Positions 31,245 through 41,315 of a stretch of DNA of 64,000 nt are shown piece after piece. The notes under the pieces were generated by a model that was not told the DNA's origin, did no database searches, and saw only the letters and a program-made list of their open reading frames with translations. The number at the start of each line of letters is the position of its first letter. The stretch's first letter is position 1. The position numbers were made by a program, and so were the translations under genes. Source of the stretch: Janthinobacterium sp. CG3 (GTDB lineage: Bacteria; Pseudomonadota; Gammaproteobacteria; Burkholderiales; Burkholderiaceae_D); contig NZ_KB467824.1 of NCBI RefSeq assembly GCF_000344615.1, forward strand, positions 971,658-1,035,657, written 5' to 3'.

Positions 31245-31952
31245 CTAGCCGTTGCGGCGCAGCGTAAAGCGGGTGAACCGCGCGCCGATGCGCGCCAGCG
31301 CGGCCTGGCTCGGATAGCCCGCCGTCGCCACCGCGTTCAAGGCGCCGTCGCCGCAGCCCTGCGGCCGGAAAATCTGCAAGGCGTAATTGTCGACGCCCAT
31401 GCCGGCCAGGGTATCGGCCAGCTCCAGCACCTCCGCCTCGGCCAGCAAGCTTGGATGAATCGTCGTGCGGCACTCGTACTCGACGCCACTGGCGATGACC
31501 GCCTCGGCGCAGGCGCGCGCCTGCGCGCCGCTGTCGGCCACGCCGGTAATGCGGGCGTAGCGGTCAAACGGCGCCTTGATATCAAAGCCCACCCAATCGA
31601 CCAGCGGCAGCACCGCCGCCAACCGTTTTGGGTAAACGCAGGCCGTGTGCAAGCCAATCTTGAAGCCCAGCGCCTTCACCTCGGCGATAGCGTCGGGCAG
31701 CGCCGGGTCCATGGTCGGCTCGCCGCCGCTGAACACCACGGCGTCGACCAGGCCGACGCGGCGCGCCAGCTTGGCCAGCAGCGCCGACCAATGCAGCGCG
31801 CCCCGCGGCGGGCGCGCCTGCAAATGCGGGTTGTGGCAGTAAGCGCAGCGCCACGGGCACCCCTGCACGAAGACCACCGCGGCCAACTGGCCGGGATAGT
31901 CCGTTGCGGTGAACGCGGTCACGCCGCCCACCTTCAGCAAGCGCGCGCCCAT
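31245..31952 (-). CDS. nrdG: Anaerobic ribonucleotide reductase activating protein NrdG
   Basis: A 235-residue radical SAM protein of the NrdG2 type. The cluster motif CPWRCAYCHNP gives C32, C36 and C39, followed by GGEPTMDP and LKIGLHTACV-like (here FKIGLHTACV) SAM-binding strands. It makes the glycyl radical on the class III reductase. The start at 31952 is 1 nt after the stop of the small glycyl-radical gene, so the two are translationally coupled. It is the third gene of nrdD, small gene, nrdG. Confidence 0.9.
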   Translation of the reverse strand: MGARLLKVGGVTAFTATDYPGQLAAVVFVQGCPWRCAYCHNPHLQARPPRGALHWSALLAKLARRVGLVDAVVFSGGEPTMDPALPDAIAEVKALGFKIGLHTACVYPKRLAAVLPLVDWVGFDIKAPFDRYARITGVADSGAQARACAEAVIASGVEYECRTTIHPSLLAEAEVLELADTLAGMGVDNYALQIFRPQGCGDGALNAVATAGYPSQAALARIGARFTRFTLRRNG

Positions 31953-31953
31953 G

Positions 31954-32148
31954 CTAGCTGATCATGCCCGAACATTGCTCATCGAAGTAGGTGCGCTCGT
32001 GGAACTCGCCCTTCTTGCCGATGTTGAACGACGACAGCGGCCGGTGATACCCCATGACGCGGGTCCAGATTTCGCACGGCTGGCGCTCGGAATCGGCGAG
32101 GGTGACGCTTTGCGGCGCGATAAAAACGGGATGGCTCGGGTTGGTCAT
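31954..32148 (-). CDS. Separate glycyl-radical (NrdD C-terminal) subunit
   Basis: A 64-residue protein that reads as the missing C-terminus of class III ribonucleotide reductase. The TRVMGYHRP motif (G33) matches the glycyl-radical loop R-x-x-G-Y, and NIGKKGEFHERTYF resembles the usual tail after the radical glycine. The ATG at 32148 overlaps the nrdD stop (ATGA). An AAGGAA sits at a normal distance upstream, so it is probably translated independently instead of being a frameshift artefact. nrdG follows after 1 nt. The radical-bearing role is inferred from motif and position; how widespread the split is in related genomes I cannot say. Confidence 0.8.
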   Translation of the reverse strand: MTNPSHPVFIAPQSVTLADSERQPCEIWTRVMGYHRPLSSFNIGKKGEFHERTYFDEQCSGMIS

Positions 32149-34196
32149 GCTGTTTCCTTCTTGGTGGTTAAGGTTGGCGACGCGGCTTCGCGCCGCTTGC
32201 GGGCGATGATTTCCTCATCGCATTTCGGACAAAACTCGTGCTTGCCGCCCAGGTAGCCGTGGCGCGGGCAAATCGAAAACGTCGGCGTGACCGTGATGTA
32301 GGGCAGGCGGAAGCGGCTCAGCGCGCGCTTGACCAGCGTGCGGCAGGCGTCGGCGCTCGACAGCGGCTCGGTCATGTATAAATGCAGCACGGTGCCGCCG
32401 GTGTACTTGCGCTGCAAATCGTCCTGGCGCTCCAGCGCCTCGAACGGGTCGTCGGTGAAGCCGACCGGCAACTGCGACGAGTTGGTGTAGTACGGCATGT
32501 CCTTGGTGCCCGCCTGCAGGATGCCCGGATAGCGCTTGCGGTCCTCCTTGGCAAAACGATAGGTGGTGCCCTCGGCCGGCGTCGCCTCCAGGTTGTACAT
32601 GTGGCCGGTTTCATCCTGGAACGCCAGCATGCGCGCGCGCACATGGTCGAGCAGGCGGATCGCCAGCGCGTGGCCGAACTCGCTGGTGATGTCGTGCGCG
32701 TCGTCGGTGAAGTTGCGCACCATTTCGTTGACGCCGTTCACGCCCAAGGTCGAAAAATGGTTGCGCAGCGTGCCGAGGTAGCGCTTGGTGTACGGGAACA
32801 GGCCGTCGTCCATGTGGCGCTGGATCACCTTGCGCTTGATCTCCAGGCTGGTCTTGCCCAGGTCCAGCAGCACGTCCAGGCGCGCCAGCAGCGCCGCCTC
32901 GTCGCCCTGGCACAGGTGGCCCAGGCGGGCGCAGTTGATCGTCACCACGCCGAGCGAGCCGGTTTGCTCGGCCGAGCCGAACAGGCCGTTGCCGCGCTTG
33001 AGCAATTCGCGCAGGTCCAGTTGCAGGCGGCAGCACATCGAGCGGATCATGTTCGGCTTCAGCTCCGAGTTGATGAAGTTCTGGAAGTAGGGCAGGCCGT
33101 AGCGCGCCGTCATCTCGAACAGCAGGTCGGCGTTGGCGCTGTGCCAGTCGAAATCCTCGGTGATGTTGTAGGTCGGAATGGGGAAGGTGAACACGCGGCC
33201 CTTGGCGTCGCCGGCCATCATGATCTCGATATAGGCGCGGTTGATCATGTCCATCTCCGGGCGCAGGTCGCCGTAGGTGAACGGCATCTCGACGCCGCCG
33301 ATCAGCGGCACCTGCTCGCGCAAATCCTCCGGGCAGACCCAGTCGAAGGTCAGGTTGGTGAACGGCGTCTGCGTGCCCCAGCGCGACGGCACGTTGAGGT
33401 TGTAGATCAGTTCCTGGATGTACTGCTTGACGTCGGCGTAGCACAGGTTGTCCTTGCGGATGTAGGGCGCCATGTAGGTGTCGAAGGAACTGAAGGCCTG
33501 CGCGCCGGCCCACTCGTTTTGCAGCGTGCCGAGGAAATTGACGATCTGCCCGATGGCGCTCGACATATGCTTCGGCGGGCTCGACTCGATCTTGCCGGGC
33601 ACGCCGTTCAAACCCTCGTGCAGCAAGGTGCGCAGCGACCAGCCGGCGCAATAGCCCGACAGCATGTCGAGGTCGTGGATGTGCAGGTCGGCGTTGCGGT
33701 GGGCGGCGCCGACTTCCGGCGGATAGACGTGGTTCAGCCAGTAATTGGCGATGACCTTGCCCGAGACGTTGAGGATCAGCCCGCCCAGCGAATAACCCTG
33801 GTTGGCGTTGGCGTTGACGCGCCAGTCGAGCTGGTTCAGGTATTCGTTCATCGACGATTCGACGTCGATCTGGCTCTGGCGCTCGCGCCGCAGCGCGTGG
33901 TGCTGCTCGCGGTAGAGGATGAAGGCGCGCAGCGTCTGGCGGTAGCCGGCGTCGTACAGCACGGCTTCGACCGCGTCCTGGATCTGCTCGATCTGCGCGG
34001 TGTCGCGGCCGTGGGCGGCGACATGTTGCAACAGCACGCTGGCGCCTAGGCAAACCGCTTCGTGGATGTTGTACTCGCCGCTGGCCAGGCCGGCGCGCAG
34101 CAGCGCCGACTCGATTTTGCCGGCGTCGAAAGGCTGCAAGCTGCCGTCGCGCTTGATGATGCTGCTGAGAGTTGAAATTGCTGCTGTGGCTGACAT
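32145..34196 (-). CDS. nrdD: Class III anaerobic ribonucleoside-triphosphate reductase NrdD
   Basis: A 683-residue catalytic subunit from the ATG at 34196 (MSATAAIS); a Met seven codons earlier lacks support. An N-terminal ATP-cone (IIKRDGSLQPFDAGKIESAL) is followed by the ten-stranded barrel with NANANQGYSLGGLILNVSG, DLHIHDLDMLSGYCAGWSL, SMCCRLQLDLREL and GSLGVVTINCARLGHL. The C-terminus has the zinc motif CPRHGYLGGKHEFCPKC and then stops, lacking the usual glycyl-radical loop, which is on the next gene. It makes dNTPs without O2. Upstream are two NrdR-like boxes and an FNR/ANR-type box. Confidence 0.93.
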   Translation of the reverse strand: MSATAAISTLSSIIKRDGSLQPFDAGKIESALLRAGLASGEYNIHEAVCLGASVLLQHVAAHGRDTAQIEQIQDAVEAVLYDAGYRQTLRAFILYREQHHALRRERQSQIDVESSMNEYLNQLDWRVNANANQGYSLGGLILNVSGKVIANYWLNHVYPPEVGAAHRNADLHIHDLDMLSGYCAGWSLRTLLHEGLNGVPGKIESSPPKHMSSAIGQIVNFLGTLQNEWAGAQAFSSFDTYMAPYIRKDNLCYADVKQYIQELIYNLNVPSRWGTQTPFTNLTFDWVCPEDLREQVPLIGGVEMPFTYGDLRPEMDMINRAYIEIMMAGDAKGRVFTFPIPTYNITEDFDWHSANADLLFEMTARYGLPYFQNFINSELKPNMIRSMCCRLQLDLRELLKRGNGLFGSAEQTGSLGVVTINCARLGHLCQGDEAALLARLDVLLDLGKTSLEIKRKVIQRHMDDGLFPYTKRYLGTLRNHFSTLGVNGVNEMVRNFTDDAHDITSEFGHALAIRLLDHVRARMLAFQDETGHMYNLEATPAEGTTYRFAKEDRKRYPGILQAGTKDMPYYTNSSQLPVGFTDDPFEALERQDDLQRKYTGGTVLHLYMTEPLSSADACRTLVKRALSRFRLPYITVTPTFSICPRHGYLGGKHEFCPKCDEEIIARKRREAASPTLTTKKETA

Positions 34197-34291: not shown

Positions 34292-34305
34292 TTGACTTGG
34301 GTTAA
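34292..34305. promoter_or_regulatory. FNR/ANR-type box upstream of nrdD
   Basis: TTGACTTGGGTTAA fits the FNR-family pattern TTGAT-N4-ATCAA with one change in each half. The same half-sites (TTGAC and GTTAA) occur in the ubiU box at 49089. It is 96 bp upstream of the nrdD ATG. No good -10 sits at the class II distance, so it may act from further upstream. Confidence 0.6.
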
Positions 34306-39038: not shown

Positions 39039-41315
39039 TTACGCCTGCTTGGCGCCAGCGACCGGCACCAGTTGCGGCTGCTTGCGGCCCTTGGTCAGCA
39101 GGCGCAGCGCGAACAGCGCCAGCAAGCCGCAGCCGATGGCGAAGACGACGTCGCCCGGCACCCGCATCCACACCAGCGTTTCCATAAACGGCGAGTGGAC
39201 CAGCTCCGGCGAGCGGGCGTACCACATGCCCTTGGTGATGCTGGCCCAAGCCTGGTAGATGCCGGCCGGAACCAGCGAGATGAACACCATCATGGCCAGG
39301 CCGATGTTGAGCATCCAGAACATCGGCGCCAACAACTTGTCGGACCAAGCGGCGCGCTCGCTCAGGCCGCGCAGACAGAACAGCAGCAGGCCGATGCCGA
39401 GCATGCCGTAGACGCCGAACAGCGCGGCGTGGCCGTGCGCCGCCGTCATGTTCAAGCCTTGCATGTAGTACAGCGCGATCGGCGTGTTGATGGTGAAGCC
39501 CAGCAGGCCGGCGCCGATCACGTTCCAGAAGCCCACGGCGATAAAGCACAGGATCGGCCATTTGTACGCCTGCACCCATGGCGCCGCTTTCGAGCGCTGG
39601 TAGTTGCGCAGCGCTTCCACGCCGATCATGGCCAGCGGCACCACTTCCAGGGCCGAGAACATGGCGCCGATGGCGATGACGAAGGTCGGCGTGCCGGTGA
39701 AGTACAGGTGGTGCAGGGTGCCGAGGATGCCGCCGAACAGGAACACGATGGTTTCGAGCACGATGGCGGTATTCGCGGTGGCCGCGCGGATCAGGCCCAG
39801 ACGGGTGAACAGCAGCGCGATGACGGCGGTGGCGAACACTTCAAAGAAACCCTCGACCCACAGGTGGACCAACCACCAGCGCCAGTATTCGACCATCGAA
39901 TAGTGGGTATGCGGACCCCAGGTCAGCGAGGTGGCGTAGAAACCGCCTATGCACATCGCCGCCAGGAACACCATGGCGATCAGGCCGCGGCTTTCCGACG
40001 GTTTTTTCAGCGCCGGCATCAAGCCGCGGCCCAGCAGCAGGACCCAGAACAGCAGGCCGACGAACAACAGGATTTGCCAGACCCGGCCCATGCTGGTGAA
40101 TTCCAGGCCCTGGTTGCCGATCCAGAAGCTAAAGTCGTTGCCCTGGTGTTGCAGCGTGCCGAGCCAGCCGAAGGCGGTCGAGCCGACGACGATGAACAGC
40201 AGCGCGTAGAACAGCATGTCGACGCCGAGTTTCTGGAATTTCGGCTCGTGGCCGGAGATCGCCGGGGCGATGTACAGGCCGGTGGCCAGCCAGGCGGTGG
40301 CGATCCACAGTACCGCGAACTGGGTGTGGATGGTGCGGCTGACGGTGAACGGCAGGATCTGGCCCAGCGGGAAGCCGAAGAAACTCTGGCCCTCGACGGC
40401 GTAGTGGGCGGTGATGACGCCCATGCCGACCTGGGCCAGGATCAGGCCGATGACGACGAAGAAGTACTTCTTGGTGGCGCGCATCGACGGCGTCGGTTTC
40501 AGGTCGAACAGCGGATCGGCCTTCGGCGGCGTCGGGTCGCCTTCTTCCTTGCTGGCCGAGTGGAACAGGATCATGCCGGCAATGGCGGCGATCATGAAGA
40601 TGATGCTGGCGATCGACCACATGCCGGCGCCGGCGGTCGGCGTGTTGGCCACCAGCGGTTCGTGCGGCCAGTTGCTGGTGTAGCTCAGCTCGGTTTCGCC
40701 GGGACGGTCGGTGGCGGCCGACCAGGCCGACCAGAAGAAGAACGACGGCAGCGCCTTCAAATCGGCCGGGTCGGGCAGGGTGCCCGGGTTCATCGCGTAC
40801 TGTTCGCGCAGCTTGTCGAGGTTCGGGTCGTTGCCGAACAGGGCCGTGTAGTGGGCCGTGACTTCGCGCACGGCGGCGGCGCGCTGCGGCGACAACGTGA
40901 CCACGCCGGTGACGGCGTCATGGGTGTTGCGGCGCATTTCGCCTTTCAGGCGGGCGCCCAGTTCGGCCTGCTGGCCGACGCTCAACTGCTCGAACGGCTT
41001 GCCGAAGTCCTGTTGCGCCCAGATGGCGCGCAGCGCCACAGCTTCGCGGTGCAGCCAATCGGCCGACCAGTCCGGCGCGAGGTAGCTGCCGTGGCCCCAG
41101 ACCGAGCCGAGTTGCTGCCCGCCGGCGGTCAGCCAGGCTTGCTGCCCGCGCTGGACCGAACCTTCTTCGAACAGCACGGAGCCGTCGGTGCTGACGACTT
41201 GCTTGTGGATCGGCGGCGCCGTCAAATAAATCTCTGTGCCTACCCAGCCGAGGACGGCAAAGGACAGCACGCAGATGACTGCGAGCCAGGTCCATAGTTT
41301 GCGTGTGGCATGCAT
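39039..41315 (-). CDS. norZ: Quinol-dependent nitric oxide reductase (qNOR)
   Basis: A 758-residue single-subunit NO reductase of the NorZ/qNOR type. A first membrane helix (about 8-28) and a large periplasmic domain (about 30-220) replace the separate NorC subunit. The heme-copper-oxidase-like core follows with about 12 helices, including TIHTQFAVLWIATAWLATGL, WVEGFFEVFATAVIALL, YWRWWLVHLW and AAHGHAALFGVYGM. It reduces NO to N2O using ubiquinol and so detoxifies or respires NO. An NsrR-like site and the nsrR gene lie upstream in divergent orientation. Confidence 0.94.
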   Translation of the reverse strand: MHATRKLWTWLAVICVLSFAVLGWVGTEIYLTAPPIHKQVVSTDGSVLFEEGSVQRGQQAWLTAGGQQLGSVWGHGSYLAPDWSADWLHREAVALRAIWAQQDFGKPFEQLSVGQQAELGARLKGEMRRNTHDAVTGVVTLSPQRAAAVREVTAHYTALFGNDPNLDKLREQYAMNPGTLPDPADLKALPSFFFWSAWSAATDRPGETELSYTSNWPHEPLVANTPTAGAGMWSIASIIFMIAAIAGMILFHSASKEEGDPTPPKADPLFDLKPTPSMRATKKYFFVVIGLILAQVGMGVITAHYAVEGQSFFGFPLGQILPFTVSRTIHTQFAVLWIATAWLATGLYIAPAISGHEPKFQKLGVDMLFYALLFIVVGSTAFGWLGTLQHQGNDFSFWIGNQGLEFTSMGRVWQILLFVGLLFWVLLLGRGLMPALKKPSESRGLIAMVFLAAMCIGGFYATSLTWGPHTHYSMVEYWRWWLVHLWVEGFFEVFATAVIALLFTRLGLIRAATANTAIVLETIVFLFGGILGTLHHLYFTGTPTFVIAIGAMFSALEVVPLAMIGVEALRNYQRSKAAPWVQAYKWPILCFIAVGFWNVIGAGLLGFTINTPIALYYMQGLNMTAAHGHAALFGVYGMLGIGLLLFCLRGLSERAAWSDKLLAPMFWMLNIGLAMMVFISLVPAGIYQAWASITKGMWYARSPELVHSPFMETLVWMRVPGDVVFAIGCGLLALFALRLLTKGRKQPQLVPVAGAKQA

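Follow-up and report, generated by a model that had tools for sequence, protein, structure and literature searches.

The 64,000-nucleotide stretch of Janthinobacterium sp. CG3 DNA analysed in this study (contig NZ_KB467824.1, positions 971,658 to 1,035,657; hereafter the window) carries on its minus strand a class III ribonucleotide reductase (RNR) locus in which the large-subunit gene nrdD, a small gene and the radical S-adenosylmethionine (SAM) activase gene nrdG follow one another. The nrdD gene (32145..34196; start ATG at 34196, stop TGA) encodes 683 amino acids (aa) comprising an ATP-cone (PF03477, Pfam profile match at residues 12-100), the class III barrel, the finger loop MCCR (M387) and a zinc motif, CPRHGYLGGKHEFCPKC (32220..32270, minus strand; residues 643-659), which by analogy with solved NrdD structures is the putative zinc site. 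This chain contains no glycyl-radical loop; its C-terminus, ICPRHGYLGGKHEFCPKCDEEIIARKRREAASPTLTTKKETA, extends 24 residues beyond the last zinc-motif cysteine and is followed by TGA. The small gene (31954..32148, minus strand) encodes 64 aa and holds the loop TRVMGYHRP (32038..32064, minus strand), within which lies the candidate radical glycine G33 (32050-32052, minus strand); RVMGYHRP is invariant across 19 of 19 alignment rows of the small protein. The nrdD stop and the small-gene start share the four nucleotides (nt) of an ATGA overlap (32145..32148, minus strand), and an AAGGAA ribosome-binding site (32154..32159, minus strand) is located within the end of nrdD, 5 nt upstream of the small-gene ATG. 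The nrdG gene (31245..31952, minus strand) starts 1 nt past the small-gene stop, and its product matches TIGR02495 (NrdG2) with 197.6 bits against a cut-off of 131.15. A putative FNR/Dnr-like box, TTGACTTGGGTTAA (34292..34305), recognised by its match to the consensus only, precedes the nrdD start by about 95 nt.

The two proteins cover complementary parts of the family profiles. For PF13597 (562 positions), NrdD covers 2-535 (E-value 4.8e-172, 574 bits) and the small protein 531-562, with 29.2 bits against a cut-off of 26.2. For NF006126 (684 positions), NrdD covers 3-661 (1124 bits, cut-off 548) and the small protein 649-683, the latter scoring far under the whole-protein cut-off because it is a fragment only. 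This bears out the sequence-only reading, which had proposed that nrdD ends past its zinc motif, that the missing loop is encoded by a gene with its own ribosome site and that the radical glycine therefore resides on a separate chain beside nrdG. An NRDD core profile, a predicted finger-loop radical cysteine in the MCCR motif at residue 387 (motif types follow the scheme in PMC9669993) and an activase encoded alongside are all present as in other class III RNRs, and the glycyl loop is confined to the small open reading frame (ORF) instead of lying on the same chain. The same reading had held that a full-length nrdD elsewhere would overturn it; no third PF13597 match was found at E-values up to 0.001 in the window's own genome (6.27 Mb, 7 contigs, completeness 100), which encodes one class I/II large-subunit match at another site. 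Compared with three distinct relatives, the small ORF shows a ratio of nonsynonymous to synonymous substitution rates (dN/dS) of about 0.14-0.23 (0.073/0.533, 0.184/0.788 and 0.137/0.648), indicating purifying selection.

A search of genome contigs returned at least 542 relatives of the small protein, of which the best 80 were analysed and assigned as split or fused by an ORF-based test. The test marked 78 of these 80 loci as split; the other two (L043 and L049) contain the small gene and nrdG with no NrdD within the fetched stretch. After exclusion by hand of L023, which has broken frames, the best 80 loci include 77 in which NrdD and the loop occupy separate ORFs, and the same split is thus found in related genomes. 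Seven loci had first been scored as fused from tblastn; six were alignments crossing an in-frame stop and are truly split, and the seventh was the frame-broken L023. Conversely, L111 was rejected as an apparent stop-crossing case, being truly fused by the ORF-based test. The L023 locus belongs to Massilia sp. H-1, in whose complete chromosome record nrdD (L023:2957-4695) is split up among several frames, probably through sequencing errors.

Programmed frameshifting or stop readthrough could in principle fuse both frames into a normal NrdD, as the ATGA overlap in the window and the 21 loci with both ORFs in one frame, separated by stop codons alone, might suggest. Against this, all three relative frames are present among the 77 split loci (33, 23 and 21), and the spacing between the NrdD stop and the matching segment of the small ORF varies widely, from -5 to +376 nt in 76 of them (median 55); the 679 nt measured in L059 arise because its NrdD is interrupted. 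NrdD is interrupted upstream in L005 as well, and a partial NrdD piece is present in L030 and L031. In two genomes the genes are not adjacent at all: nrdD lies approximately 9.5 kb away from the small gene-nrdG pair in G043 and on a different contig in the genome of L043. Both genomes belong to one genus (g8), and the unlinking may represent one event. A start-site catalogue of 146 loops, viral ones included, left three long fused ORFs unscored (L111, L126 and L128) and holds no entry for L061, L095, L107, L108 and L112; at least five contiguous Shine-Dalgarno (SD) matches precede 110 of the 143 scored loops, compared with 7.3% of 4380 ATGs drawn at random from these loci, a comparison biased towards separate genes by the choice of each small-gene start according to its SD. 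Fusion of the frames during translation is therefore highly improbable, and the earlier claim that the split is not a frameshift holds for separate ORFs in three frames and for unlinked genes alike.

Beyond the closest relatives, the split architecture is widespread, and many bacteria are predicted to encode their class III RNR as two proteins. The window's genus resembles Janthinobacterium, its nearest named relative at 96% identity over 550 alignment columns. In this genus, NrdD of this type was identified in 32 of 37 sampled genomes, with the loop as a separate match in 31 of the 32 and beyond an in-frame stop in the remaining one (G022, the genome of L084); in another member (G034), NrdD itself is in two pieces. 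In a sample of the phylum (397 genomes), 20 genomes exceed the NF006126 cut-off and the identical 20 carry the small-protein profile, 17 of them split (including the window and G043) and three fused. The window's order (349 genomes) yielded 104 genomes matching the small-protein profile, 95 strongly and nine weakly; the weak matches (E-values 6.5e-6 to 6.7e-4) lie in open frames of 596-701 aa and are taken to be ordinary NrdD. At least three of the 95 strong cases are fused (G547, G583 and G642), the remainder not having all been inspected singly, and seven of the 95 genomes possess two or three small-gene copies. In a Pseudomonas-like genus around G198, represented by 25 genomes, the 14 members that exceed the NrdD cut-off all have the split form. 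Most of these 14 NrdDs (L103, L168-L180) bear a cysteine-rich C-terminal tail (e.g. SCC, sometimes GGCGG), possibly a redox or metal tail, which the window's NrdD does not have. Split genes also occur in plasmid records, among them those of Cupriavidus, Paracoccus and Sulfuricurvum, and RefSeq labels the small gene 'nrdD' in several records.

The recurrence of the architecture in different families, and in complete records like that of plasmid pHG1, also bears on whether nrdD is simply broken in the window, by assembly error or as a pseudogene. Broken NrdD frames do occur in some relatives (L023, L005, L059 and G034), yet the conserved architecture, together with the dN/dS of the small ORF and the functionality of nrdDG in Pseudomonas aeruginosa and Cupriavidus necator (see below), refutes this explanation and leaves it with next to no probability.

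The history of the split was addressed with NrdD trees built without C-terminal columns, from which L023, L083, L086, the window's own copies (L001, L002 and L101) and NrdD ORFs shorter than 480 aa were left out, and which are affected by long branches. The split genes group in a single large clade, joined there by some fused genes, and the more distant fused genes branch outside it; three split/fused changes are needed in the FastTree tree (114 rows), three in one IQ-TREE tree (51 rows) and four in the other (55 rows). The simplest reading, favoured by the tree, is one old split followed by re-fusions in L111, in an Actinomyces oris plasmid (L126) and in one genus belonging to the window's order (L241, L244 and L245). 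The last three are true fusions that retain the small protein's CEIW signature, and the best tree puts them inside the split clade. UGA readthrough in this genus was considered and dropped, there being no stop codon at the junction, and L242 and L243, taken as fusions from open-frame length, proved to be split. The approximately unbiased (AU) test, run twice, rejects a split clade that contains no fused row (p 0.00026 in the first run and p 3e-93 in the second). Placement outside the split clade gives p 0.0487 and 0.0189 for L111 in the two runs; it is rejected neither for the Actinomyces gene (p 0.56, first run) nor for the L241/L244/L245 trio (p 0.168, second run), which weakens the case for these two re-fusions. 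Under the model used, that at least one re-fusion occurred is thus surer than which individual re-fusions are real. The fused NrdD of the A. oris plasmid (L126:2387-4366) shares 73% identity with the window's NrdD across residues 101-661, and this similarity suggests transfer between Proteobacteria and an oral actinobacterium.

Comparison with a solved structure places the small protein where the C-terminus of NrdD is missing. A profile of read-through pairs aligns residues 103-615 of Thermotoga maritima NrdD (4coi) to the large chain, and the small-protein profile aligns residues 616-644, end to end after the large chain, with the conserved glycine at residue 621 by counting. The split point falls between the zinc motif and the radical loop; in PcNrdD, the zinc site, radical loop and tail together form a single C-terminal domain at residues 676-739 (PMC11226230). 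At the level of sequence, NrdD and the small protein demonstrably tile the family profile, are separately encoded, are conserved together and can be unlinked. We consider it very likely that they constitute a two-polypeptide class III RNR with a detachable small radical subunit.

In such an enzyme, the large chain would hold the allosteric cone, catalytic barrel and zinc motif, and the small chain (roughly 50-70 aa) would hold the glycyl-radical loop and the C-terminal tail. NrdG would abstract a hydrogen atom from the glycine of the small protein (G33 in the window), and the loaded small protein would then dock in the NrdD barrel and hand the radical on to the cysteine of the finger loop. Only the replaceable 7-kDa piece would be destroyed by oxygen or nitric oxide (NO), and the 76-kDa catalytic chain would survive. 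The split may also ease activation, because the radical domain of one-chain enzymes flips out of the core (PMC12662201). The economy argument fits the presence in the window of a copper nitrite reductase gene and of the putative FNR/Dnr-like box before nrdD. The copper nitrite reductase (TIGR02376; 25553-27043) has a C-terminal cytochrome-like stretch, and an ORF at 39039-41315 resembles a quinol NO reductase by eye, with no NCBIfam match.

Several points weigh against this interpretation. The mapping onto the missing C-terminus, as anticipated by the sequence-only reading, stands insofar as the two alignments tile 4coi, whereas the small-protein profile alone matches that structure weakly (E-value 0.34). 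The AlphaFold model of the read-through pair is poor (mean predicted local distance difference test score, pLDDT, 57.7), which leaves the docking of the small protein a prediction. In the L049 genome, which is possibly incomplete, the small gene is present and the NrdD core was not found. The support for the enzyme as a whole comes from sequence comparison, and the oxygen-economy argument is one that we infer.

The canonical class III NrdDs of T4, Thermotoga, Prevotella and Streptococcus share with the window's enzyme the ATP-cone (in most), barrel, zinc motif, glycyl loop and NrdG, and differ from it in that, in the window, a second polypeptide bears the loop and the tail. A free-standing small glycyl-radical protein recalls GrcA/YfiD and Y06I, spare parts of pyruvate formate-lyase (PFL), the latter from phage T4. 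This likeness, drawn earlier between the small protein and GrcA/YfiD, extends to a free radical-bearing small protein and ends at its role: GrcA/YfiD replaces part of an enzyme that has its own radical domain, whereas the small protein is of the NrdD family and, as its partner lacks such a domain, would be an obligatory subunit. The window's small protein matches PF13597 alone in Pfam (E-values up to 1) and no PFL-type glycine radical domain, and no partner that also has a radical domain was found, there being no other NRDD match in its own genome. Spare-part proteins have been validated for PFL only (two of them) and could exist for other enzymes (PMC8683613). The split class II NrdJa/NrdJb of P. 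aeruginosa is likewise an RNR of free-living bacteria cut into two co-transcribed genes, with NrdJb mediating thiol-disulfide exchange where the window's small chain instead carries the radical loop; a 2015 article describes NrdJ as the sole split RNR to have been found outside viruses (PMC4520616). Phage nrdD genes also occur in pieces, divided by introns, inteins or homing endonucleases (six cases are listed in PMC3653736); no such element intervenes in the window's locus, where the parts overlap by 4 nt. Within the accessible portions of the open-licence literature, we found no report of a bacterial class III RNR with its radical domain on a gene of its own, and none of phages that carry a free radical domain of the NrdD type.

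The split form is also found in organisms in which anaerobic RNR has been studied in vivo. Plasmid pHG1 of C. necator H16 encodes an NrdD of 676 aa (76.19 kDa), a small protein of 66 aa and NrdG, in split arrangement. The 1999 abstract of Siedow et al. reportedly describes a 76.2-kDa NrdD of C. necator that loses function with G650A, and assigns the glycyl radical to G650. On that account, the small protein might be a mere spare part like GrcA, with the real radical on NrdD itself, for instance at a glycine of the zinc motif. In pHG1 NrdD, however, G650 sits in the context CPTHG650YLAG, in the stretch that matches the zinc motif at residues 643-659 of the window's NrdD; the RVMGYHRP loop is on the small protein, where profile and solved-structure alignments also put it, and damage to the zinc site would presumably cost function as well. 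We regard the spare-part explanation as very unlikely, and if the abstract does state this, the assignment of the radical to G650 was probably mistaken. The same paper is said to give an NrdG of 30.9 kDa. The idea that a protein of this size starts inside the small gene was unsupported, the single upstream start giving 27.1 kDa.

NrdDG is cited as essential for complete denitrification in C. necator, and the C. metallidurans genes are given as Rmet_5137 and Rmet_5139, with one number between them (PMC2864759). In genome G486, which is split, the promoter box TTGACGCAGATCAA lies 98 nt before the 675-aa reading of NrdD; the nrdD box of P. aeruginosa PAO1 is at -98, with C in place of the first T (PMC5645315). 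G486 is very probably P. aeruginosa or a close sister because its box matches the published one. In P. aeruginosa, nrdDG supplied in trans restores anaerobic growth independent of B12, with cells like the wild type (PMC5645315), and the complementing fragment would have contained the small gene.

Relatives of the small protein are also encoded by viruses. A first scan identified 33 viral contigs, and a profile scan identified 220 viral stretches, of which 80 loci were examined, some on contigs shared with the first scan; an NrdD relative is inside the fetched stretch in one of the 33 (L158) and one of the 80 (L247). Searches of whole records revealed the C-terminal stretch of PF13597 without the core in 21 of 21 and 36 of 37 viral records (57 of 58), the exception, G797, having NrdD and a separate loop; these 58 records were hand-chosen, mainly longer ones, and IMG/VR records are often fragments, so that the core may lie elsewhere in the virus. 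Proteins near the viral loops match PHROG families of tail fibre, baseplate, terminase, primase and endolysin (ten proteins, three without a match), and in a further set an Rz-like spanin (L264) and replication initiation and helicase proteins (L299), with 10 of 20 proteins lacking a PHROG match. In one viral contig, a free radical loop is directly upstream of a thymidylate-synthase-like gene (L307:4501-5218). The viral small proteins tested match in PHROGs only phrog_4132, of unknown function there; its profile matches two viral free-loop proteins, L149:3986-4186 and L133:3902-4159, which makes free radical loop a candidate annotation for this family. INPHARED, a collection of annotated phage records, yielded two weak matches only and thus no instance of the free gene.

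Bacterial genomes contain free copies as well. The seven multi-copy genomes comprise 15 regions, in which seven extra copies are free of nrdD and an eighth (L237) adjoins nrdD and nrdG fragments. Three of the seven free copies are held in prophage lysis cassettes, in the order holin, endolysin, loop, spanin (L228), endolysin, spanin, loop, spanin (L231) and endolysin, loop, spanin (L235), the spanin scores in L228 and L231 being weak (E-values 4e-5 to 6e-4). Their hosts also carry the nrdD-small gene-nrdG locus (L229, L230 and L236). The free copies L227, L232 and L234 were assigned to no element type. A second small-gene copy is beside a relaxase-like gene (DUF3363; L240:6988-8709), from which mobile elements other than phages may carry the small gene too. 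The Allochromatium plasmids pALVIN01 (L326:5001-5210) and pAt1 (L327:2460-2645) contain a free small gene annotated nrdD, and neither has an NrdD match at an E-value of 1e-20. Of the free copies, five were compared with Pfam (two from viruses, two from prophages and one from neither); at E-values up to 0.01 they match PF13597 alone and no PFL-type radical domain.

We lean towards regarding the radical subunit as a traded part, which phages, prophages and some plasmids plug into a host NrdD lacking its own glycyl-radical domain. Phages and prophages carrying only the radical piece would presumably sustain deoxynucleoside triphosphate (dNTP) synthesis in anoxic hosts, and their copies would fit the radical piece as the limiting, perishable part; they are a closer parallel to a spare part than is the window's small protein. 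That the viral copies are instead morons with another role, or mis-called bacterial DNA, is rather unlikely: the viral records are mostly software-called fragments and half of one set of neighbours has no PHROG match, whereas terminase, tail, holin, endolysin, Rz-like spanin, replication and thymidylate synthase genes are among the neighbours and the records searched whole almost all have the loop without the core.

The split RNR would be a glycyl-radical enzyme that bears its radical on a separate and exchangeable protein, and a natural system for how an activase handles an isolated radical domain. It occurs in study organisms of anaerobic DNA synthesis, namely C. necator and very probably P. 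aeruginosa, and, as the split suggests, the published radical-site assignment in C. necator (G650) needs rechecking. In phages, the compact gene possibly serves nucleotide supply in anoxic hosts; if so, a phage would top up anaerobic dNTP synthesis during infection by a subunit of approximately 60 aa, from a gene about one-tenth the size of that for the whole enzyme.

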